Shown: one piece after another, positions 32,626 to 41,875 of the stretch | Position numbering within the stretch: the stretch's first letter is position 1 | Layout of the letters: each line of letters starts with the position of its first letter | DNA from: Bryobacterales bacterium | Lineage (GTDB): Bacteria; Acidobacteriota; Terriglobia; Bryobacterales; Bryobacteraceae | Reading direction: 5' to 3' | Assembly: GCA_026129915.1 (NCBI GenBank) | Contig: JAHCHD010000004.1 | Coordinates: 1-64,000, forward strand | DNA: 64,000 bases | Notes under the pieces: model-generated | The model's input: only the letters and a program-made list of their open reading frames with translations | The model's database searches: none | Told to the model about the DNA's origin: nothing | Position numbers and translations under genes: made by a program

Positions 32626-33762
32626 CTAAAACGCGCTGGCGATCCACTTGGGAAACACGCTGATGGCGTAGCTGAAGTCATCGCGCTTCCATTGCGAGAT
32701 CTCGTACATCGCATCCCCGAGATCCTCGCCCATTTCGGCAAATACCTTCGTGGGCCCCTGCTTCATTCGGCTTACCAGTCGCTCCAGGCGAGGCATCATG
32801 GCATCCACGTCCATCTTGCCCTTCACCACAATGTCGATGGCGCCCAGAGCGAGCGTTGTGACCGCATCGACAGCCGTGGCGCCCAAGCCGATGGGGTCAC
32901 AGGCCCGCATCACCTTGAATACCCCCTTGGCTTTCCAGGAATCCGGCGCGATGCCCTCCAACAAGCTCTGCAGACCCTCGATCATGGCGGCCCAAGGCAC
33001 TGCTTTGCCCATGACGATCTTGTACGCTTCGGTGGCTCCGTAAAGATAGTCCCCATCGGCCATTTTGTCGGCGATCTCAATCATCGCAACCAGCAGGCCG
33101 GCGCGACCGGCAACCTTGCCCGTGAAGCCCAGGAACCTGGTGAACTTACCGGTGGGTTTGGCCAGGTCGTCGAAAAGTTCGATGGCGGCCTTGGCCTTGC
33201 GCATTCCGGTAACCGCGCGCATCACCTCGCGGCATTCCTCAAAGGTAAGCCCAAAGCGGCGCAGCGCCAGAAATGCGGAAGCGAGCTTTGTGGCATCCTC
33301 CGCCCGGCCAATCGCTCCAAGGAAGTTTTTCATCGCCGGGATAGAGCCATCCACAAATGCGCGACGGAACAAGTCGAACTCCGGCTCGCGCCCAGCTTCC
33401 CGGAACTTGGCCCGCATTACTTCTTCGTGCGGAATACTGCCAGCCGGCCCGCTGGGCCCAGCGGGAGCGCCAATACTCATCTTGGCCCACTTGGATGCCG
33501 AGTCTGGATCATTCAAGGCAGCGATCGTGCCCTTGGCCGGATCAACGCGGCCATCGGGACTCGGAGTCTTGCGGACTTCCTTCTGAAACTCTCGGATACA
33601 ACTGACAGTGAGCGGCCCGCACTTGCCATCAACGGTCAGCTTCTTCCGAGTGGCAGGCATCAGGTCGTTTAGCCGCTGCTGGATATTCTTGACATCCTGA
33701 GGCTGGTTCTTTCCCAGATGGCCTACCGATTGGGTGATTGAAATGGATTGATTGATGGGCAT
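32626..33762 (-). CDS. Peptidoglycan-binding-domain protein with long helical region; candidate effector or substrate
   Basis: 378 residues from the ATG at 33762, preceded by GAGGAG; the longer frame to 33795 has no better site. Residues 10-85 resemble a PG_binding_1 domain (DVKNIQQRLNDLM, LTVDGKCGPLTVSCIREFQ, DGRVDPAKGTIAAL). The rest is alpha-helical and partly hydrophobic (AGRAGLLVAMIEIADKM, IGLGATAVDAVTTLALGAIDIVV) and matches nothing I know. There is no signal peptide. It is the last minus-strand gene after the E2-like gene, 134 bases downstream, so it may be part of the ubiquitin-like operon or separate. Confidence 0.7.
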   Translation of the reverse strand: MPINQSISITQSVGHLGKNQPQDVKNIQQRLNDLMPATRKKLTVDGKCGPLTVSCIREFQKEVRKTPSPDGRVDPAKGTIAALNDPDSASKWAKMSIGAPAGPSGPAGSIPHEEVMRAKFREAGREPEFDLFRRAFVDGSIPAMKNFLGAIGRAEDATKLASAFLALRRFGLTFEECREVMRAVTGMRKAKAAIELFDDLAKPTGKFTRFLGFTGKVAGRAGLLVAMIEIADKMADGDYLYGATEAYKIVMGKAVPWAAMIEGLQSLLEGIAPDSWKAKGVFKVMRACDPIGLGATAVDAVTTLALGAIDIVVKGKMDVDAMMPRLERLVSRMKQGPTKVFAEMGEDLGDAMYEISQWKRDDFSYAISVFPKWIASAF

Positions 33763-33896
33763 GTGTACTCCTCGTCGCAAATAATGCCGGAACAATGGTT
33801 AGCGAGAAGGAGATTTGTTAGGGCTTAAGGTGAGCAAGAATCTTTTGGCAAACCGAGGCAGGGTGCGTGCCTCATCCAAGCCACCTTGCGGACGGA

Positions 33897-34364
33897 TCAG
33901 GATCGAGGGGCAATCTCCCGGCCATCCACTGGCAGCAGGTGCGGGTTATCCGCAGCCCAACGAGCAGCCAATCCATTGAGCGGACTCTTAACGTTGTATT
34001 CCTGGTACGCAATCATCCGCCCGATACGGATTACCAGGTCATCAAGGCCTTCCGAAGCCGCCCAAAAGTCGCCGATGCACACAGTGCTTTGATCGAAGTT
34101 GGGGTGAAAAATGGGTGTGAGAATCTTGCACTGCGGGGCGCGCCGCGGATAGCCCAGCGAAAGGTTGATGTCCACGATGTGCTCACTTCGCTCAAGGATG
34201 TCTCCGCCTGGCGCCACATGCAGGCCCTTCACGGTGTACGTGAGCCGGTAGTGCTCCGGTGGTTGCATGCCATTCGTTGCGATCTGGATGAGGGGCCAGC
34301 CGGCAAAGCGCCGGTTAAGGATTTCGTAATCCAGAGTAAGGCGACGAATGCGAGGAGAACTCAT
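33897..34364 (-). CDS. E2-like (UBC-fold) conjugating enzyme
   Basis: 155 residues from the ATG at 34364 (MSSPRIRRLTLDYEIL). The UBC fold is easy to follow: N-terminal helix with RRLTLDYEILNRRF, then meander strands ending GYPRRAPQCKILTPIF, the HPN triad at 87-89 (HPNF), the probable catalytic Cys96 in STVCIGDFW, and SPLN at 127-130 before AARWAADN. HPN, the active Cys and SPLN together are hallmarks of eukaryotic E2 enzymes, so this is likely active in carrying the ubiquitin-like protein as a thioester. It starts 19 bases after the DUF2752 gene in the same operon. No membrane segment. Confidence 0.87.
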   Translation of the reverse strand: MSSPRIRRLTLDYEILNRRFAGWPLIQIATNGMQPPEHYRLTYTVKGLHVAPGGDILERSEHIVDINLSLGYPRRAPQCKILTPIFHPNFDQSTVCIGDFWAASEGLDDLVIRIGRMIAYQEYNVKSPLNGLAARWAADNPHLLPVDGREIAPRS

Positions 34365-34383: not shown

Positions 34384-34848
34384 TTAGGGAGCCAGCACCC
34401 GCGCCCAATCGAAGGGAAGGTTCCGCACAAAGGCAAACACCAACATCACGACGAGCAACAGCGCCGGCAAGAACCCTGGGATACGAACATTCTTCCACCG
34501 ACCCTCGCGCGCCAGCGACACAGCTTGTACGAGTACGAATGTCGTTAGCGCAGGCAAGAGCGCGATCAGTAGCAAGTTATGCTGCGCCGCCAGTTGCAGG
34601 TCGCCATGAAGCAGGGAGTGCAAGGCACGGGTGGCGCCACATCCTGGGCAGTAGAGGCCGCTAGCTGCACGAATCATACACGGGGGATAGAACCAGGACG
34701 TCGCGGGCGGAAACCAGTAAAGCAGGCCCAGCGCGCCGGAGATCCCAGCGATCATGACTGCGAGGCGACGGTAACCCCCGGTGAGCGAACTCGCGCTGCG
34801 TGCCGGTGTCCCCGCGAGCGCGTTGCTCCGAATTGGCAGTCCCGCCAT
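34384..34848 (-). CDS. DUF2752 membrane protein
   Basis: 154 residues from the ATG at 34848; an ATG at 34887 would add 13 residues. Three hydrophobic segments are visible. The DUF2752 signature is YCPGCGATRALHSLLHGDLQLAAQHN, with a CxxC pair that could bind metal or form a disulfide at the membrane. Function of the family is unknown. It lies between the second GYF protein and the E2-like gene, with small gaps on both sides, so it belongs to the same transcription unit. Confidence 0.85.
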   Translation of the reverse strand: MAGLPIRSNALAGTPARSASSLTGGYRRLAVMIAGISGALGLLYWFPPATSWFYPPCMIRAASGLYCPGCGATRALHSLLHGDLQLAAQHNLLLIALLPALTTFVLVQAVSLAREGRWKNVRIPGFLPALLLVVMLVFAFVRNLPFDWARVLAP

Positions 34849-34921
34849 AGTTTCAGAGTACTTGTGCCAGGGGAAGCCTGCCAACATCGCTGAATCACCG
34901 CAGTCCGTCGCCGTTGCCGTG

Positions 34922-35638
34922 CTAAAGCAGGACGCCCGTCCTCTTCCACCGGGCGATGCGGCTCATGTGGTACTGAAAATAGTAAACAGCGAAGAAGAAA
35001 GTCATGATCGGCCCAAGATGCAGCCCGATATTCTCAACACGCTGAAAGTACTCATTCATCGACCTGCGCATGGAGAACACGCCCACCAGGTAGAGCACCA
35101 AAGAGCCCAGGCTCATCACCATCACAAGAGCGAACAGCGCAATGGTAAAGGCATCCGCGGAATCGCCGGTGGTGAAAGACATCGCAAAGTTAGGAATAAT
35201 CGCCGCATAACCGATTGCGACATAAGCGACCAACACCCAGATGGCGTTGCTGCGAGGATCCAACTTGCGCACCCACCAAGCCTGCACTAACAGCCACACA
35301 TACCCCGCCATTCCGCAGGTTAGGAGAGTAAGCACCAACAGCAGTGCCCAGTGGAAATCGATCGGAAGCGGAGCGCCATTTGCCATCACGGGAACCTGGT
35401 ATGCAGGCAAATACGCACCCTGTGGCAGAGCTTGCGGGACTGCCGGCGCAGGGGCTGGTAATGTGGCGGCAGGCCACGCATCACTTCCCAGCACCAGACG
35501 GGCAGGTTGCCACACGGTGTCCGTTTCCGGCCTCACCTCGTCGCTGGGCGCAGCGTTGCCGGTAAACGCGAAGCGCCGCAGGTCAGCAAGAGTATAGGGG
35601 CCATACTCTTCGTTCCCGCGGCGCAGAAAGTAATTCAT
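34922..35638 (-). CDS. GYF_2 (DUF4339) domain membrane protein, second copy
   Basis: 238 residues from the ATG at 35638 (MNYFLRRGNEEYGPYT); the open frame continues to 35677 but the domain begins here. An N-terminal GYF_2 domain (EEYGPYTLADLRRFAFTGN, VRPETDTVWQPA) is followed by a Pro/Ala linker and about four transmembrane helices. The tail FFFAVYYFQYHMSRIARWKRTGVLL matches the end of the preceding gene product, so the two are paralogs from a tandem duplication. GYF domains usually bind Pro-rich peptides. Part of the ubiquitin-like operon. Confidence 0.82.
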   Translation of the reverse strand: MNYFLRRGNEEYGPYTLADLRRFAFTGNAAPSDEVRPETDTVWQPARLVLGSDAWPAATLPAPAPAVPQALPQGAYLPAYQVPVMANGAPLPIDFHWALLLVLTLLTCGMAGYVWLLVQAWWVRKLDPRSNAIWVLVAYVAIGYAAIIPNFAMSFTTGDSADAFTIALFALVMVMSLGSLVLYLVGVFSMRRSMNEYFQRVENIGLHLGPIMTFFFAVYYFQYHMSRIARWKRTGVLL

Positions 35639-35677
35639 ATTGAGAGGGATGGTCGCTAGAGGCCGTCCACACTCCAA

Positions 35678-36565
35678 CTATTGGGGCAGAGTACCCGTTG
35701 TCTTCCACGTCGTGATGCGGTTGAAATGGTACTGCATATAGAAAATCGCGAAGAAGATCATCAGAATCGGATTGAGTTTCAGATTGATGGGCTCCACCGC
35801 GTTGAAGTAACCTTCCAGCGATTTCTTGAGATCGAGAATCCCCGTGATGAAGAAGAACAAATATCCTCCAAATCCGGCCAGAGAAATCAATCCGGAAAGC
35901 ATCGCTCCAATCGCGGAGTCGCTGAGGAGAATCGCCAGAGGAATTGAGATCACGTAGCTCGCAATCAGGATCCCAAAGCCGGTGAGGATTTTTGGCAGGG
36001 TCCTGTTCTGTGGATCCAGCTTCTTCACCCACAAGATTTGCATGATGAACCAAACCAGGCCAAAAATTCCGCACACCATGCTGATCACAAGCACCACCAC
36101 CCAGTTCATGCCCGGTGGCAGCGGCGCGCCGTTCTTCATCGCACCCGCGGGGGCACTGGATGCACCGGCGTTTCCGGCAACTGCACCAAAGCCACCTCCC
36201 ATGGCAGCCATGCCAGCATCTGGCGCGGCGCCATAGCTGGGGGCGGGGGCTCCCCAGGCTGGTTCGGGAGATCCATAGTCGGGGGCCTGCTGCGGCATCG
36301 GTGCTGGATCAAAGAAAGGATCCGCCATCGGCTGGGGTGTCGGAGCGGGGCTATAGCTCGGCTGCGGGGCGGGAGTGGGCGCCGCCGGGCCGCCCGCAGC
36401 TTGCCCCTTCTTGGACAAGATATCCTTTACGGTAAGCCAGCGATCGCTGCCCTCCGCCCTCACCATGTCCGATTCCACGATATTGCCGGACGTCAAGTAC
36501 TGCTGAATGTCGTTCCCGGAATAGGGTCCGAACTCCTGGTCGCCCCGCTTGATCATGTACATCAT
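35678..36565 (-). CDS. GYF_2 (DUF4339) domain membrane protein, first copy
   Basis: 295 residues. The N-terminal GYF_2 domain (YMIKRGDQEFGPYSGNDI, VRAEGSDRWLTVKDIL) precedes a long Pro/Ala/Gly-rich linker over about 55-145, then about four transmembrane helices, ending FYMQYHFNRITTWKTTG. The Pro-rich linker could itself be a ligand for a GYF domain, either its own or its paralog's, giving self-assembly at the membrane (inference). It lies 52 bases after the RING/TM2 gene, with GGGGGA before the start, and 39 bases before its paralog. Confidence 0.82.
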   Translation of the reverse strand: MMYMIKRGDQEFGPYSGNDIQQYLTSGNIVESDMVRAEGSDRWLTVKDILSKKGQAAGGPAAPTPAPQPSYSPAPTPQPMADPFFDPAPMPQQAPDYGSPEPAWGAPAPSYGAAPDAGMAAMGGGFGAVAGNAGASSAPAGAMKNGAPLPPGMNWVVVLVISMVCGIFGLVWFIMQILWVKKLDPQNRTLPKILTGFGILIASYVISIPLAILLSDSAIGAMLSGLISLAGFGGYLFFFITGILDLKKSLEGYFNAVEPINLKLNPILMIFFAIFYMQYHFNRITTWKTTGTLPQ

Positions 36566-36617: not shown

Positions 36618-37226
36618 CTATCCCATCGGGAAGCCATCTCCGTCGTAGTCCACGGTTGCCGCTTCCACCAGCGCCCAGATCCACACAACCGGGGCAAGTA
36701 CGAAACAGCTCAGCAGACTCATACAGAGTTGAATAATACCAGCACTCGTTCGATTTGCATATAGGTTGTGGGCGCCAACGAACCCACAACACACCGCCAG
36801 CCAAACATAGCTCTTCCTGTCCAGGGCGGGCTGTGGCTGCAACTCTGGATGCGTAAAGTGAACCGAGGCGGGATCAATAACCAGGGGCGCAAAAGTACTA
36901 ATTGGCAGCGGGACACCGCTCCCCGGAGCTGGGGGAGGCGGCGGTACACCCGTCGTATCCGAATCCGTGAGACCACTGCCCTGCTGCCATCCTGGCGCTG
37001 GATGCTGAGTGACTGGCGTAGCGGATGGCCCGAATCGCAGGTCATCGGCACTCACCTGTACCATTGCCTCTTCTACCGGCGCCGCGTCGCAGCCAAAAAC
37101 GGTGCAGCCACCGTTCTCTTCCCAACAATCGCGATGGTGGGGGGTCGCGCAGACCGGGCAGACTGTTACTTGCTCGTGCGTCTCATCGATGGGTGCACGG
37201 CAATAGGGGCATACCGGGAGGCTCAT
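36618..37226 (-). CDS. RING-finger/TM2 membrane protein, candidate E3-like factor
   Basis: 202 residues from the ATG at 37226. The N-terminus has a binuclear treble-clef: Cys6-x2-Cys9, Cys23-x2-Cys26, His30-His31, Cys34 (HHRDCW), then Cys41 and Cys46 (GGCTVFGC). This matches prokaryotic RING-type fingers reported next to E1/E2 genes. A Pro-rich linker follows (PPPPPAPGSG), then a C-terminal TM2 domain (YVWLAVCCGFVGAHNLYANR and YDGDGFP) with two membrane helices. It could act as an E3 that presents the loaded E2 to membrane substrates; activity is unproven. The start overlaps the FHA gene stop by 4 bases (ATGA). Confidence 0.83.
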   Translation of the reverse strand: MSLPVCPYCRAPIDETHEQVTVCPVCATPHHRDCWEENGGCTVFGCDAAPVEEAMVQVSADDLRFGPSATPVTQHPAPGWQQGSGLTDSDTTGVPPPPPAPGSGVPLPISTFAPLVIDPASVHFTHPELQPQPALDRKSYVWLAVCCGFVGAHNLYANRTSAGIIQLCMSLLSCFVLAPVVWIWALVEAATVDYDGDGFPMG

Positions 37227-38305
37227 CGCGGATGGCGTTCCTGGTAAAGAAACGTGTAGCGGCCAATTTGCAGCTGGTCGCGATGTCGCAACAATCGCGG
37301 TCGCGTGGGGCTTGTGCCCATGTACACTGGCCCGCGTGGGATAAGCCACAGCCCAGGCCCGCGCCGCTCAAGCGAGGCATGCACGTCCTGGATGGAAGGA
37401 TCCTTAAAGAGATATATATCGCAAACCTGGCTGCGCCCAATGGTGGAAACCGGTTTGTAGAGAATGAATTGCTTGCCTGCAAGAGGCCCGGAGGACACAT
37501 ATAGCCAGCGTTCCTTCAAGGCGCTTTCCACCAGGCCCATGGCCATGCCTGTGCACAGGCCGAACACCGCGAAGCCCACAGCGCGACTCAGGTCGCCACT
37601 GTCGAGCTGGTTGGCGATTGGGTCAAACAGTATTCCCCCGATTCCCGCGCCCAGCATACCGCCCAGCACGCCATACAGAAGCTTGCGCGCGCTCAGCCCG
37701 GCGACACCGTAAACCAGGCCCGCACTCACCCCAAACAGTGCCCAGGCAAGTGACCGGCTGGCCCACCAGGACGGCATCTCCGGGCTGATCTCCCCGCCCA
37801 TTGAGGCAATCCCAAGTAGCAAGTTATACAGGATGGAGGCCACAAAGCTGAACACGAAGCCGAGAGGAATTCCCAACGCAAAGGCCAGGCTCCCGCGGAT
37901 GAGAGCCCTGCGCCACGATCGCTCCACGACGCTTTCGGCGATCGCGCAGCCCAAACAACAAAACGCCACCACCGAAGGAATCATCAACGAGCCCAGCCAT
38001 CCCCAGGAACCTTTTTCCGGGCCGTCCACATACACCGGCTCAATCAACGCCCAGCCAACCAGCGCACCCACGAAGCCTGCAAGCCCCAGGTAGAACCAGC
38101 TCTTCAGCAGGATGCTGCCACGTGGAATAGGTCCCGCTTGCTCTGGTACAGCCGCATCGCGAATGTTTCCATAGCGCTTCCCGGAACCTTCGGCACCAGC
38201 CCGGTCAGCGGGTTGCTCCACGGCATTCCGGGTATCGTTGGCCGCTTCCTCCAAACGCGCCAAGTCAGCGTTCGTAATCCGTAATGGCTCCGGCTGCTCA
38301 CTCAT
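37223..38305 (-). CDS. Multi-pass membrane protein with C-terminal FHA domain
   Basis: 360 residues from the ATG at 38305, with GAAGGTGG upstream. About 65 polar residues are followed by six or so hydrophobic segments between 70 and 260, and then a forkhead-associated domain near 275-355: VSTIGRSQVCDIYLFKDPSIQDVHASL has the GR, S and H positions that bind phosphothreonine. FHA domains read Thr phosphorylation, so this may link the pathway to a Ser/Thr kinase, but no kinase gene is in the window. The gene overlaps the JAMM gene at its start and the RING gene at its end. Confidence 0.85.
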   Translation of the reverse strand: MSEQPEPLRITNADLARLEEAANDTRNAVEQPADRAGAEGSGKRYGNIRDAAVPEQAGPIPRGSILLKSWFYLGLAGFVGALVGWALIEPVYVDGPEKGSWGWLGSLMIPSVVAFCCLGCAIAESVVERSWRRALIRGSLAFALGIPLGFVFSFVASILYNLLLGIASMGGEISPEMPSWWASRSLAWALFGVSAGLVYGVAGLSARKLLYGVLGGMLGAGIGGILFDPIANQLDSGDLSRAVGFAVFGLCTGMAMGLVESALKERWLYVSSGPLAGKQFILYKPVSTIGRSQVCDIYLFKDPSIQDVHASLERRGPGLWLIPRGPVYMGTSPTRPRLLRHRDQLQIGRYTFLYQERHPR

Positions 38306-39233
38306 GGCCACCTTCTCTCTGGGAGCCCTCTGCCGTAGCTTCCTTCTGAGCCGCGGCGCCTCCAGTCTCCGCGCCCGATTGCAGCCCGCGCTCGCGCATT
38401 TCCCGCTGCAGTTGCAGCGCCCGTTCTACAGCCACGCGCGTCTCCGCCTCGCTCAGCAGCCGTCCGTCGGGAAATGAGTACATCACCAAGGTCCGTGGTA
38501 GCAGCATCAGTCCGGCGGCTACACCCGCTACGAATACGAGGGCCATACTGAACAACAACACCAGCCTTTTCCTCAGGCGAGAACGGTTTGACCGGTGAGC
38601 AGTTACCTCCGGTTTATCCTCCTGGCCCGCGTCCTCGGGGGCAACCGTATGCTCAGGCTCATCCTGCAATAGGGCCTCCGTCGCGTGCTTGGTATCAATC
38701 ACGCGTATGGCGCTAAGCCGGCGCAATTCACCGTCCACCCAACCGAAACAGCCCTCTTCCTCCGAATGGGGGTCAAAGACCCAAGCAACCTGGAAGGCCG
38801 CCGAGAAGAAGTTCTCGTGGATGAAGGCGTCATGCCGCGAAAGAAATATTCCAAAGCCAGGGTGGGAGTGATACCAACCCACGATCCGTTTGTCGGGGTA
38901 CTCGCGGTCTTTCACTGAATAAATGTGCTCCCAGGTATCCTGAGTGAATGTAACGTGGGCTCCTCCCTGCGCTGCGTTCTCCCCCGCGATCGCAGCCTCA
39001 ACCAGAGTACCCTCCGGTCGCTCTTCCCCAATCAGAACTCCGCACACCTCGGCGTCCATGCTCGCCCTGGCGTGGCGGTGGATCGCCTGCACCACCGATG
39101 CCGACACCGTCACCTGGCAACTTGCCTGCATCGCCTCCGGGGGCAGGGCGTCAAAGCGCTCCGGATCCGGTAGCTGGGGTGGCGGTGTTTCATGGATCTG
39201 CCTCTTTGGGGACGATTCCGTCTTCCTCTTCAC
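38298..39233 (-). CDS. JAMM/JAB metalloprotease with C-terminal membrane helix, deubiquitinase-like
   Basis: 311 residues from a GTG at 39233, with AAGGAGG upstream. The JAMM zinc site is complete: Glu62 (DAEVCGVLIG), then His122, His124, Ser132 and Asp135 in HSHPGFGIFLSRHD, spaced exactly as HxH-x7-S-x2-D. This predicts an active isopeptidase that could process or remove the ubiquitin-like protein. A transmembrane helix at about 223-246 (LVLLFSMALVFVAGVAAGLML) follows and a charged, helical tail ends it. GTGA couples its start to the E1 C-terminal frame; the FHA gene overlaps its stop. Confidence 0.9.
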   Translation of the reverse strand: MKRKTESSPKRQIHETPPPQLPDPERFDALPPEAMQASCQVTVSASVVQAIHRHARASMDAEVCGVLIGEERPEGTLVEAAIAGENAAQGGAHVTFTQDTWEHIYSVKDREYPDKRIVGWYHSHPGFGIFLSRHDAFIHENFFSAAFQVAWVFDPHSEEEGCFGWVDGELRRLSAIRVIDTKHATEALLQDEPEHTVAPEDAGQEDKPEVTAHRSNRSRLRKRLVLLFSMALVFVAGVAAGLMLLPRTLVMYSFPDGRLLSEAETRVAVERALQLQREMRERGLQSGAETGGAAAQKEATAEGSQREGGHE

Positions 39234-39769
39234 AGGGCCTCCTTCGACAGATCTCCCAGCACCGTGCCCGCATCGCCCGCCATCAGGTAAGCGATCTCCC
39301 GTTCACCTGCCCGCGCGACGACCACATCGAACAATGGAAGGCCCAATTCATCCAGGCGCCGGCCGCCCAACTCGGCATCCCCATGGTAGCCATGGCACAG
39401 CACTACCTCTCGCATCGTCCCATCGGCGGGGTCCTTGCCGTCTTCCATGGACAGTCGTCCAAGAGGGAGGAAGCATTCCTGCGCTACACCGGTTGCCGGG
39501 TTCACCAGCTTCCAAACCACGTCGCGGCTAAACTCCAGCACCGCATGATCCGCATGCAGATCAGCGCATGCTCTGGCCCGCAATTCCTCCAGGGTTATCT
39601 CGCTGGAGCGCTCCGCCAGGCGTACAACCTGGCCGAACGTGTAGTGGCTCAGACAATCCGGGTCCGGCGTGTATTCGGTCACGTAGCTGCTGTGGTGCAG
39701 TCCTTCAAACACAAATCCCTTGCTGCTCAGGCTCGGCAGGCCGTGCAGCAACTTCAGCGCTTCCTGCAC
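39230..39769 (-). CDS. C-terminal half of the E1-like enzyme (separate frame)
   Basis: 179 codons from a GTG at 39769; the frame is open upstream to a TGA near 39786. QEALKLLHG is the helix that in E1 enzymes follows the TTPTTSSxIAG block, and FVFEG with PDCLSHYTF continues that domain. The last 100 residues (ITLEELRARACADL, LDELGLPLFDVVVARAGEREIAYLMAG) have the shape of the ubiquitin-fold domain that binds E2. This is therefore the second half of the gene at 39754-40434, in another frame. Its end contains the ribosome site for the JAMM gene, so this reading frame is probably translated. Confidence 0.75.
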   Translation of the reverse strand: MQEALKLLHGLPSLSSKGFVFEGLHHSSYVTEYTPDPDCLSHYTFGQVVRLAERSSEITLEELRARACADLHADHAVLEFSRDVVWKLVNPATGVAQECFLPLGRLSMEDGKDPADGTMREVVLCHGYHGDAELGGRRLDELGLPLFDVVVARAGEREIAYLMAGDAGTVLGDLSKEAL

Positions 39770-40434
39770 CTGCGCAGCAAGCGATCACCGCGGAACTGGT
39801 GGGGGGTGGTGGCCACCTTGCCTGCTTCCTCGTCGGCGGAGGTCAGCAGGTTGCACGACATCCGTCGGTTCAAAATCGCCCAATCCACCTCGCCCAGCGT
39901 GCATTCATAGCAAGCCGGCTTGCCAGCTTCAAACACTCTGGCCACGCCGTTGAGGCCCTCGATGGCGCCATCGATCCACGGCTTGCCCAGCTTCCAGGCA
40001 GCGCGGTTCAGGAAGAGTCGAGCCTCGCGATTGTCGAGCCCTCCTATAATCACATCCGCCCAATCAAACACTCCCAAGCCAATATCCTGCAGCACATTGG
40101 CATGCATCCCCTGAATGCGGCAATTCGGGTAGAGGGCACGCACGGCACGCGCGGCCACGTTCGCTTTGGCCTGGCCTACATCCTCCTGCCGGAATAGTAC
40201 CCCTCGGCTGAGGTTCGAGGCCTCGATGCAATCGAGGTCCACCACCAGAACGTCGCGAAAGCCCAGCAGGGCGAGGTTCTTGAGAATCTCGTTGCCCAAG
40301 GCGCCCGCGCCTACTACAAGCACGCGTGCCGCCTCAATCACGTCTTGCCGCCACCACGGCAACAAGCGCAGGCGGCTGAAGCGATCGTCCTGAAGCTCCG
40401 CCGTATCCACTCGCACTGTTGGCTGTGCGCTCAT
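39754..40434 (-). CDS. E1-like (UBA3/ThiF family) activating enzyme, N-terminal part; reading frame broken
   Basis: 226 codons in this frame. VLVVGAGALGNEIL (residues 39-52) is the ATP-binding loop; DLDCIEASNLSR gives the Asp and Arg that hold ATP; DNREARLFLN is also conserved. CYEC (175-178) looks like the first half of the zinc site and Cys194 in RRMSC sits where UBA3 has its catalytic Cys. The enzyme should adenylate the C-terminal Gly of the neighbouring ubiquitin-like protein and pass it to Cys. After Pro211 the frame diverges from the family: expected residues continue in the other two frames and resume in the ORF at 39230-39769. AGAGGAG precedes the ATG. Confidence 0.85.
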   Translation of the reverse strand: MSAQPTVRVDTAELQDDRFSRLRLLPWWRQDVIEAARVLVVGAGALGNEILKNLALLGFRDVLVVDLDCIEASNLSRGVLFRQEDVGQAKANVAARAVRALYPNCRIQGMHANVLQDIGLGVFDWADVIIGGLDNREARLFLNRAAWKLGKPWIDGAIEGLNGVARVFEAGKPACYECTLGEVDWAILNRRMSCNLLTSADEEAGKVATTPHQFRGDRLLRRCRKR

Positions 40435-40454: not shown

Positions 40455-40724
40455 CTATCCCGCCGTGATCTCCGGCTGCATCCGCAGGATGTCGCCTTCG
40501 TTCACCCCAGCCTCGGCCAGCGTTTGGGTGTCGAGCAACTGGCGGCCCGTGTTCTTGTGATGGAACTTGTAGCTGAGTGGCGCACCGTCGGGTCCGCTGC
40601 GCGGCAATTGCAGTTTCTCAATCAGCACGGCGATGATTTTGCCGGCCGGGGCATCGTCCGGCAACTCCACCGGCACTCTCTTGTTCTCTGTGGAGTCGAA
40701 GACAGTAACGTTAATGGCGGGCAT
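40455..40724 (-). CDS. YukD/EsaB-type ubiquitin-like protein
   Basis: 89 residues with a beta-grasp pattern: INVTVFDSTENKRVPVELP (two strands), APAGKIIAVLIEKLQL (helix), SYKFHHKNTGRQLLDTQTL and GVNEGDILRMQPE (later strands). The C-terminus is TAG, a single terminal Gly without the double Gly of ubiquitin and without a tail to remove. YukD-like proteins occur in type VII secretion loci and in bacterial E1/E2 operons. Its place between the protease and the E1 gene, 14 and 20 bases away, suggests it is the modifier of this pathway. AGAGGACG precedes the ATG. Confidence 0.82.
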   Translation of the reverse strand: MPAINVTVFDSTENKRVPVELPDDAPAGKIIAVLIEKLQLPRSGPDGAPLSYKFHHKNTGRQLLDTQTLAEAGVNEGDILRMQPEITAG

Positions 40725-40738
40725 GAGTCGTCCTCTGG

Positions 40739-41875
40739 CTAGCGAAGGTCAGCATTCGCGGGCGTTGGCCCATCCATGGCGTGTGGCGCTGAATGCTGCA
40801 CGAGGTTATTGTCCCAGAAGCGCTCGAGTATTCTTTCTCCATCGCCCTGAAAGTTCCAACCGCTCCGGTTGAGCAGCGCATCCGCGCGGACAGCGAAGTT
40901 CAGATTCTCGGCATTCGGGTTGAAGCGCCGGTCCACCTTGAAGCTCACCACCGCCAGCAGACGGCCAAGCTCGTCGTATACCGGTCCGCCACTGTTTCCC
41001 GGGCTCACCGGCGCAGAAATCTGCAGTAGATTCTGCTCGTGGGTGCGCATCACGATGCCAGTGGAGAGCGAAAAGAACAGCCGCTGCGGGTGCCCTATCA
41101 CAAACACGTTCTGGCCCGTCTCAGAGTGAGCGAAATCAGCGACAGGCTGGCGGAATGTAGGGCCTTCACCGGCACGAGGCGTCCACACGATTGCCAGGTC
41201 GAGTTCCTGATGGCGGGCAATCACCTCTCCGCGGCTGCTGCCACCGTCTTTGCGGAAGAGGAGCACCGAATCTGCCGCGCGCCGCGGCATTAGCAGGCTT
41301 TCGGCATCCACCACGTGCCGGTTGGTAGCAATCAGGAATCCGTCGCGGTCTGCGGCCAGCAACACGCCCGCACCCACGGCACCGGACTCCTCATAGGTCT
41401 TCGGGGGACGCTGGCTGGCAAATTCGGGGCTGATCACAAACACCAAGCCCTCAGTCTCCCTGGCAAGGCGCGACGCGCTTAGCACGCTTGAAGCCGGCAG
41501 CAGAGGGTAGCCGCCCCGGTATTCCATTACAGGCATGGGCGGGGCTTGCCACGTGGGCCGGGGCCCGACAAAATATGCCATGCTAAACAATAGTGTCGTC
41601 AGCAGACCGCTAGCTATCAGTAGAGAATTCGTCCAATGCGCCCACGCAAGTTGGACTCGTGGCAGCTTCGACCGCACCACAATCCGAGCAGCCACTGCCA
41701 CCAGACAGAGCAGGGGAAGCGCCAAGACCAAGGGAACGGTTGCAAGGCGAACCGCGATTGGAATTACCGGTGGTCTGCGTTGGCTTGGAGACGCAAGCGC
41801 ACTACTCTGCGTCTCACTGCCTGCAGGCAGTTCGGCGTCCTGAAGGTCAGCAGCGGTTACCGAAATTTTGTCCAT
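40739..41875 (-). CDS. Membrane-anchored trypsin/HtrA-like serine protease
   Basis: 378 residues. A Ser/Gln-rich N-terminus (about 40) is followed by two transmembrane helices (42-65 and 82-103), placing the protease domain on one side of the membrane. The chymotrypsin-type triad is His187 (TNRHVVD), Asp226 (ELDLAIV) and Ser295 (SPGNSGGPV). No PDZ domain is present. It is the first gene of the operon; the gap upstream is the divergent promoter region shared with the SDR gene at 42103. It may cleave conjugated proteins or mature a component, but that is inference. Confidence 0.85.
   Translation of the reverse strand: MDKISVTAADLQDAELPAGSETQSSALASPSQRRPPVIPIAVRLATVPLVLALPLLCLVAVAARIVVRSKLPRVQLAWAHWTNSLLIASGLLTTLLFSMAYFVGPRPTWQAPPMPVMEYRGGYPLLPASSVLSASRLARETEGLVFVISPEFASQRPPKTYEESGAVGAGVLLAADRDGFLIATNRHVVDAESLLMPRRAADSVLLFRKDGGSSRGEVIARHQELDLAIVWTPRAGEGPTFRQPVADFAHSETGQNVFVIGHPQRLFFSLSTGIVMRTHEQNLLQISAPVSPGNSGGPVYDELGRLLAVVSFKVDRRFNPNAENLNFAVRADALLNRSGWNFQGDGERILERFWDNNLVQHSAPHAMDGPTPANADLR

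Follow-up and report, generated by a model that had tools for sequence, protein, structure and literature searches.

A two-zinc finger joined to a membrane-anchoring TM2 domain is encoded in a conserved bacterial operon for a ubiquitin-like (Ubl) modifier pathway, and its presence in genomes is linked to that of the pathway's E2. The protein, P0001, is encoded in the window, the whole stretch of 64,000 nucleotides from a Bryobacterales bacterium that was analyzed. We propose that it is a RING-like (C4HC3 treble clef) E3, or an E3-like adaptor, of a membrane-based Ubl pathway, a reading to which we assign a probability of roughly 0.6.

The finger-TM2 protein and its operon

The gene is on the minus strand, with its ATG at 37226 and its stop at 36618, in an operon whose order on that strand is HtrA-like protease, YukD-like Ubl, E1, JAB, FHA, RING-TM2, two GYF_2 proteins, DUF2752, and E2. 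The features are as follows:

40739..41875, minus: first operon gene, HtrA/DegS-like trypsin-fold protease, membrane-anchored (NCBIfam DegP/HtrA/DegS matches below curated cut-offs; two predicted TM helices)
40455..40724, minus: YukD-like ubiquitin-like modifier, 89 aa, ending LRMQPEITAG-stop (PF08817, E 2e-14)
39754..40434, minus: N-terminal part of the E1-like ThiF enzyme, bearing the ATP site and, in RRMSC, the candidate catalytic Cys (PF00899, E 3e-45; alignment)
39230..39769, minus: C-terminal part of the E1, in a different frame from the N-terminal part in this assembly (two single-base insertions versus sister locus L010)
38298..39233, minus: JAB/JAMM peptidase whose C-terminal TM helix spans residues 224-242 (PF01398, E 2e-13; YHSHPGFGIFLSRHD motif)
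37223..38311, minus: multi-TM protein with a C-terminal FHA domain (PF00498, E 1e-6; TM prediction)
36618..37226, minus: RING-TM2 protein P0001, whole gene, 202 aa (ORF; Prok-RING_1 and TM2 over Pfam cut-offs)
37089..37211, minus: binuclear C4HC3 zinc finger of P0001, residues 6-46 (sequence, alignments, fold model pLDDT 95.7)
36820..37076, minus: Pro-rich, low-confidence linker of P0001, about residues 51-136 (pLDDT, dN/dS)
36660..36808, minus: TM2 domain of P0001, the membrane anchor, about residues 140-189 (PF05154 over cut-off; fold-model helices)
35678..36565, minus: GYF_2-domain membrane protein (a) (PF14237, E 1.8e-8)
34922..35677, minus: GYF_2-domain membrane protein (b) (PF14237, E 4.5e-7)
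34384..34887, minus: DUF2752 membrane protein (PF10825, E 1.9e-16)
33897..34364, minus: E2-like conjugating enzyme with HPN motif and catalytic Cys, HPNFDQSTVCIGDFW (PF00179 over cut-off)

Overlaps of 4 bases join E1 to JAB and FHA to RING-TM2, and the Ubl, E1, and E2 are the only operon proteins without predicted TM helices. The same gene order is found in five related genomes as far as their contigs extend, with the number of GYF_2 genes differing, and the first-gene position of the HtrA/DegS-like protease is conserved. The gene directly downstream of the E2 (32626-33795, minus) encodes a protein with an N-terminal repeat that, by eye, resembles a peptidoglycan-binding repeat.

From Acidobacteriota to Bacillota, the Ubl tail LRLQPEITAG hardly varies; the glycine is the C-terminus in about half of the loci, and in the others it is followed by a tail of variable sequence, as expected if the peptidase trims the Ubl. 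In three Ruminococcaceae MAGs (L081:6595-7851, L082:6352-7890, and L088:5359-6633) the Ubl frame does not stop at ITAG but extends into a long protein that includes a hydrophobic segment, an arrangement that resembles a ubiquitin-precursor fusion and that the JAB peptidase could cut. The JAB retains its HxHP...D motif, and in the E1 alignment the nucleotide motif is kept, as is one invariant Cys within RRMSC, the segment in which UBA4-like E1s carry their catalytic Cys. HPN and Cys are retained in the E2 of the loci displayed, and the E2 profile matches eukaryotic E2s, with a best E value of 4e-8.

An earlier, sequence-only reading had described P0001 as a complete eight-ligand RING fused to TM2. 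Both domains exceed their Pfam cut-offs, Prok-RING_1 (PF14446) with E 3.9e-10 and 40 bits against 29.1, and TM2 (PF05154) with E 1.3e-6 and 28.9 bits against 27.9. All eight ligands are present, spaced C6-x2-C9-x13-C23-x2-C26-x4-H31-x2-C34-x6-C41-x4-C46, and each is kept in 57 or 58 of 58 homologues. The fifth had been given as H30/H31; it is H31, invariant across the 58, and residue 30 varies, being mostly H, Y, or F, with Y or F in many planctomycete relatives. A search for the strict ligand pattern returned 92 ORFs from 1.77 million residues, and since all 92 were positive with a RING profile, the pattern is not a chance occurrence. Comparison of the finger in the window with that of L010 gave a pN of 0.14 and a pS of 0.82, which indicates purifying selection.

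The full-length AlphaFold model has pLDDT values of about 82-94 in the finger blocks and about 91-97 in TM2. The linker block lies at about 52-64 (residues 51-130), reaching up to 89 in residues 131-140, and its dN/dS exceeds that of the TM2 part. TM2 is helical in the model, and one of its two helices passes a simple hydropathy threshold. A model of the finger alone, built from the 58-sequence alignment as protein without zinc, gave a pLDDT of 95.7 and a pTM of 0.77; it consists of a hairpin (residues 20-22 and 29-31) and a helix (32-38), which bears out the two-zinc treble clef read from the ligands.

Structure and profile searches place the finger among the two-zinc treble clefs of the RING/PHD group without separating RING from PHD. 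In a Foldseek search against the PDB with the finger, PHD fingers predominated, and the RING-H2 domains of Pirh2 and EL5 were within the top 50; none of these matches had E below 0.1. The best solved match of the finger profile was the RING-H2 E3 EL5 (E 1.3e-5), followed by PHD fingers and more RINGs, RNF4, Pirh2, and Arkadia among them. The fusion thus stands as two Pfam domains with a membrane anchor, but the finger is not a canonical RING: it is C4HC3 with a last pair C-x4-C, where canonical RINGs are C3HC4 or C3H2C3 with C-x2-C, and it has the C-x2-C-x4-H-x2-C spacing of C4HC3 PHD fingers. The PHD Trp two residues ahead of ligand 7 is replaced by G39 in P0001, and Pfam gave no PHD match to P0001 up to an E value of 1; on these two grounds, identity as a PHD finger was rejected.

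Conservation, anchoring, and linkage to the E2

An E2 alignment was scanned against one genome per species for 84,980 species. The scan gave 319 relatives, and the 80 highest-ranking were retained as loci. Using profiles grown from the window proteins, we detected the finger in 63 of the 66 loci (among these best 80 of 319) that had at least 2.5 kb upstream of the E2, always on the E2 strand and in several phyla; the contig end cuts most of the finger-less loci. In one locus (L057), nearly 10 kb upstream of the E2 relative is without recognizable E1, Ubl, JAB, or finger.

The link holds at the level of whole genomes. Among 244 Planctomycetota genomes, 16 had both finger and E2, 3 the finger only, 6 the E2 only, and 219 neither (P = 1.5e-17, or 1.3e-15 without the two seed genomes); the corresponding counts were 4, 1, 10, and 281 for 296 Acidobacteriota (P = 1.6e-5) and 5, 1, 1, and 53 for 60 near relatives (P = 6e-6), although these P values overstate the certainty because genomes were treated as independent and related species are not. 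In both mismatched near-relative genomes the operon reaches the contig end. No E2 of any kind was present in 3 of the 19 finger-bearing Planctomycetota genomes, and the finger is therefore able to act without an E2. The finger-only Acidobacteriota genome (G111, with Prok-RING_1 over the cut-off and no E2) proved to be a false match to a pair of zinc ribbons.

The TM2 fusion, which the sequence-only reading had singled out, is not what distinguishes this finger, which across phyla is also found joined to other membrane anchors. Fusion to TM2 was found in Acidobacteriota, one Verrucomicrobiota locus, and one Sumerlaeota locus; other partners are GYF-type membrane regions, FHA-profile regions, trypsin-like domains with TM helices, and other TM segments. 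Most operon fingers carry predicted TM helices, and because the anchors differ among loci, membrane anchoring is the common theme, with TM2 as one version of it.

Several loci have variant arrangements. Four from Planctomycetota (L060, L083, L085, and L094) have two or three tandem RING-like proteins ahead of the E2, one of which is fused to a trypsin-like protease domain (confirmed by Pfam in L083). Loci L015 (G044) and L130 (G262) combine a tandem double YukD Ubl, E2, JAB, and FHA with a finger placed C-terminally on a longer protein; in L015 the finger-bearing protein is vWA-like, the JAB domain occurs twice, and ligands 1 and 2 of the finger are not clearly present.

In a few genomes the finger is present in many copies. 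Matches at E ≤ 1e-4 numbered at least 90, 94, and 69 in the Planctomycetota genomes G392, G411, and G427 (loci L237-L239, L208-L236, and L245-L264, respectively), counts that may be low as 150 of 174-233 first-look candidates were scored, and 18 in the Acidobacteriota genome G085 (L131-L139 and L156-L161). In all four they are spread over many contigs, and the full ligand pattern was present in 47 of 49 sampled fingers, weaker G411 matches included. All four encode exactly one E2 each, which clusters with Ubl and JAB (and with E1 in the planctomycetes); no finger was found in this E2 cluster in any of the four. The Ubl tail in the multicopy genomes is TSTFVAG followed by a short extension, and E2 loop 7 reads WSPA in the three planctomycetes, as in eukaryotes, and WAPS in G085. 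Finger fusions in G085 include ankyrin repeats, a DCC1-like domain, a GntR-type domain, TPR-like repeats, and a CreD-like membrane protein.

The simplest reading is that the multicopy fingers are a set of E3-like proteins using one common E2. Taken further, some bacteria might run a eukaryote-style ligase network in which dozens of interchangeable RING-like E3s, carrying various target-binding or membrane domains, share a single Ubl and a single E2, and RING-TM2 in the window would be a single-copy, operon-bound form of this arrangement; we hold this extension tentatively, at somewhat less than even odds. The one-E2, many-finger genomes are a more surprising lead than the window protein, and if confirmed they would represent bacterial E3 diversification that can be tested in a prokaryote.

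Proposed role and alternatives

In the pathway as we envisage it, JAB would remove the tail from those YukD-like Ubls that have one, leaving the ITAG glycine at the C-terminus; the ThiF-type E1 would then activate the Ubl, and the E2 would receive it on its cysteine. Anchored through TM2 in the inner membrane, the finger would bind the charged E2 (E2~Ubl) and steer transfer of the Ubl to targets at or near the membrane, presumably by stimulating it, and JAB would reverse the conjugation. The FHA, GYF_2, DUF2752, and HtrA-like proteins may be membrane partners in sensing, target choice, or clean-up.

The most informative reference for such a role is srfp, the archaeal RING E3 for which I30, W58, R69, and E2 loops 4 and 7 have been tested; mutating W58 and R69 impaired the protein (PMC5654768). 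With equivalences assigned by ligand position, Y8 of P0001, between ligands 1 and 2, matches srfp I30 and occupies the position of the usual hydrophobic E2 contact, which is Y, I, F, or V in 54 of 57 sequences. The Trp four residues past ligand 6 (srfp W58) is absent from P0001, which has N38 there; W35 lies one residue past ligand 6, three positions from the W58 site. Likewise, the linchpin Arg/Lys past the last ligand (srfp R69) is D47 in P0001, and the relatives are mixed at this position. In the window E2, loop 4 reads YPRRAP, and loop 7 reads WAAS in place of the eukaryotic WSPA; loop 7 of the operon E2s is mostly without Pro, and WAPS occurs in three operon E2 matches, two of which are the same locus. 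A charged contact between the E2 loop-4 Arg and finger Glu37 was considered and discarded, as the acidic residue persists where E2 loop 4 has Ser. No natural RING-E2 fusion ORF was found among the loci.

It is mainly because of these interface residues, with Y8 alone kept and WAAS in the E2, that we do not call E3 activity established. The sequence-only proposal of a bacterial E3 candidate keeps its very strong genetic link to Ubl, E1, E2, and JAB and its membrane anchor, and is weakened by a Trp and an Arg out of their usual places and an E2 without the SPA loop. The same residues give some weight to a scaffold, in which a PHD-like module would hold E2, E1, or Ubl at the membrane while the E2 transfers alone or with another partner. 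That reading would also account for the PHD-type C4HC3 spacing, the predominance of PHD fingers among structural neighbors, the operon E2 loop 7 mostly without Pro, and the numerous membrane partners in the operon. We nevertheless regard it as unlikely: P0001 has neither a Pfam PHD match nor the Trp two residues before ligand 7, and large, scattered expansions alongside one E2 suit interchangeable E3s better than a single scaffold. A RING E3 is thus likelier than a passive scaffold, if not proven.

The sequence-only reading also placed the gene in an operon with E1 and E2. Both are there, but two single-base insertions that L010 does not have, one of them within a run of six C and the other a few tens of bases away, interrupt the E1 gene, so that it is not intact as sequenced in this assembly. 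The E1 may then be a fresh pseudogene and the pathway dead in this strain, leaving the RING with no charged E2, a state that would be compatible with the other explanations. We consider this quite unlikely. Both E1 halves are under purifying selection (dN/dS of 0.065 and 0.18), as is every other gene tested, and the E1 is intact, as a single ORF, in the six relatives that were read; the assembly is fragmented and 85% complete, and such errors occur in assemblies of this kind. The split could be an assembly error or a very recent break.

A generic structural zinc finger, a copy of the widely reused Prok-RING_1 whose place in the operon has nothing to do with conjugation or that is itself a Ubl target, would fit the genomes that have the finger without any E2 and its fusion in expanded genomes to unrelated domains (ankyrin, TPR, GntR, and DCC1-like), but is very improbable given the conserved operon position across phyla and the Planctomycetota co-occurrence (P = 1.5e-17).

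The RING-like E3 or adaptor therefore remains our preferred reading. The origin of ubiquitin ligases is an open question, and P0001 is a ligase candidate that is tied to an E2 across several phyla and lacks residues important in known RING E3s; for that reason, it offers a test of what E3 catalysis really requires.

Comparison with known systems

Burroughs, Iyer, and Aravind reportedly predicted prokaryotic RING E3s in 2011, together with E1, E2, JAB, and YukD-like Ubls. P0001 resembles those proteins in belonging to the Prok-RING_1 family by Pfam score and in its neighborhood of Ubl, E1, E2, and JAB; systems of this type were thus already predicted, and the window locus is a further member. 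No description of one-E2, many-finger genomes was found in the literature searched, which excluded the 2011 paper; the arrangement is otherwise familiar from eukaryotes. Eukaryotic MARCH (RING-CH) E3s also have an N-terminal C4HC3 finger followed by two TM helices, with a ligand spacing that differs from that of the window finger, and no MARCH protein was among the solved-structure matches listed for the finger profile.

Like the anti-phage conjugation operons BilABCD and Bub, the window operon groups the genes for a bacterial Ubl, E1, E2, and JAB. BilABCD is described as four genes with a two-domain Ubl, and no RING is listed for it (PMC11354881). The E2 and Ubl models of PADLOC 2.0.0, whose coverage of Bub is uncertain, gave no match, with similarity limited to E1 and, weakly, JAB. 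For want of an E2 or Ubl model match, assignment to Bil/Bub or another defense system was rejected; we found no sign of a defense setting for the operon and no plasmid copy of P0001.

The closest biochemical precedent is the Ub-E1-E2-srfp(RING)-Rpn11 system of Caldiarchaeum subterraneum, for which E3 activity was shown (PMC5654768). Like it, the window operon is prokaryotic and encodes a modifier, an E1, an E2, a JAB-type peptidase, and a RING. Whereas srfp is a canonical RING-H2 with I30, W58, and R69, the window finger has an equivalent of I30 only (Y8), is of C4HC3 type, and is anchored in the membrane.
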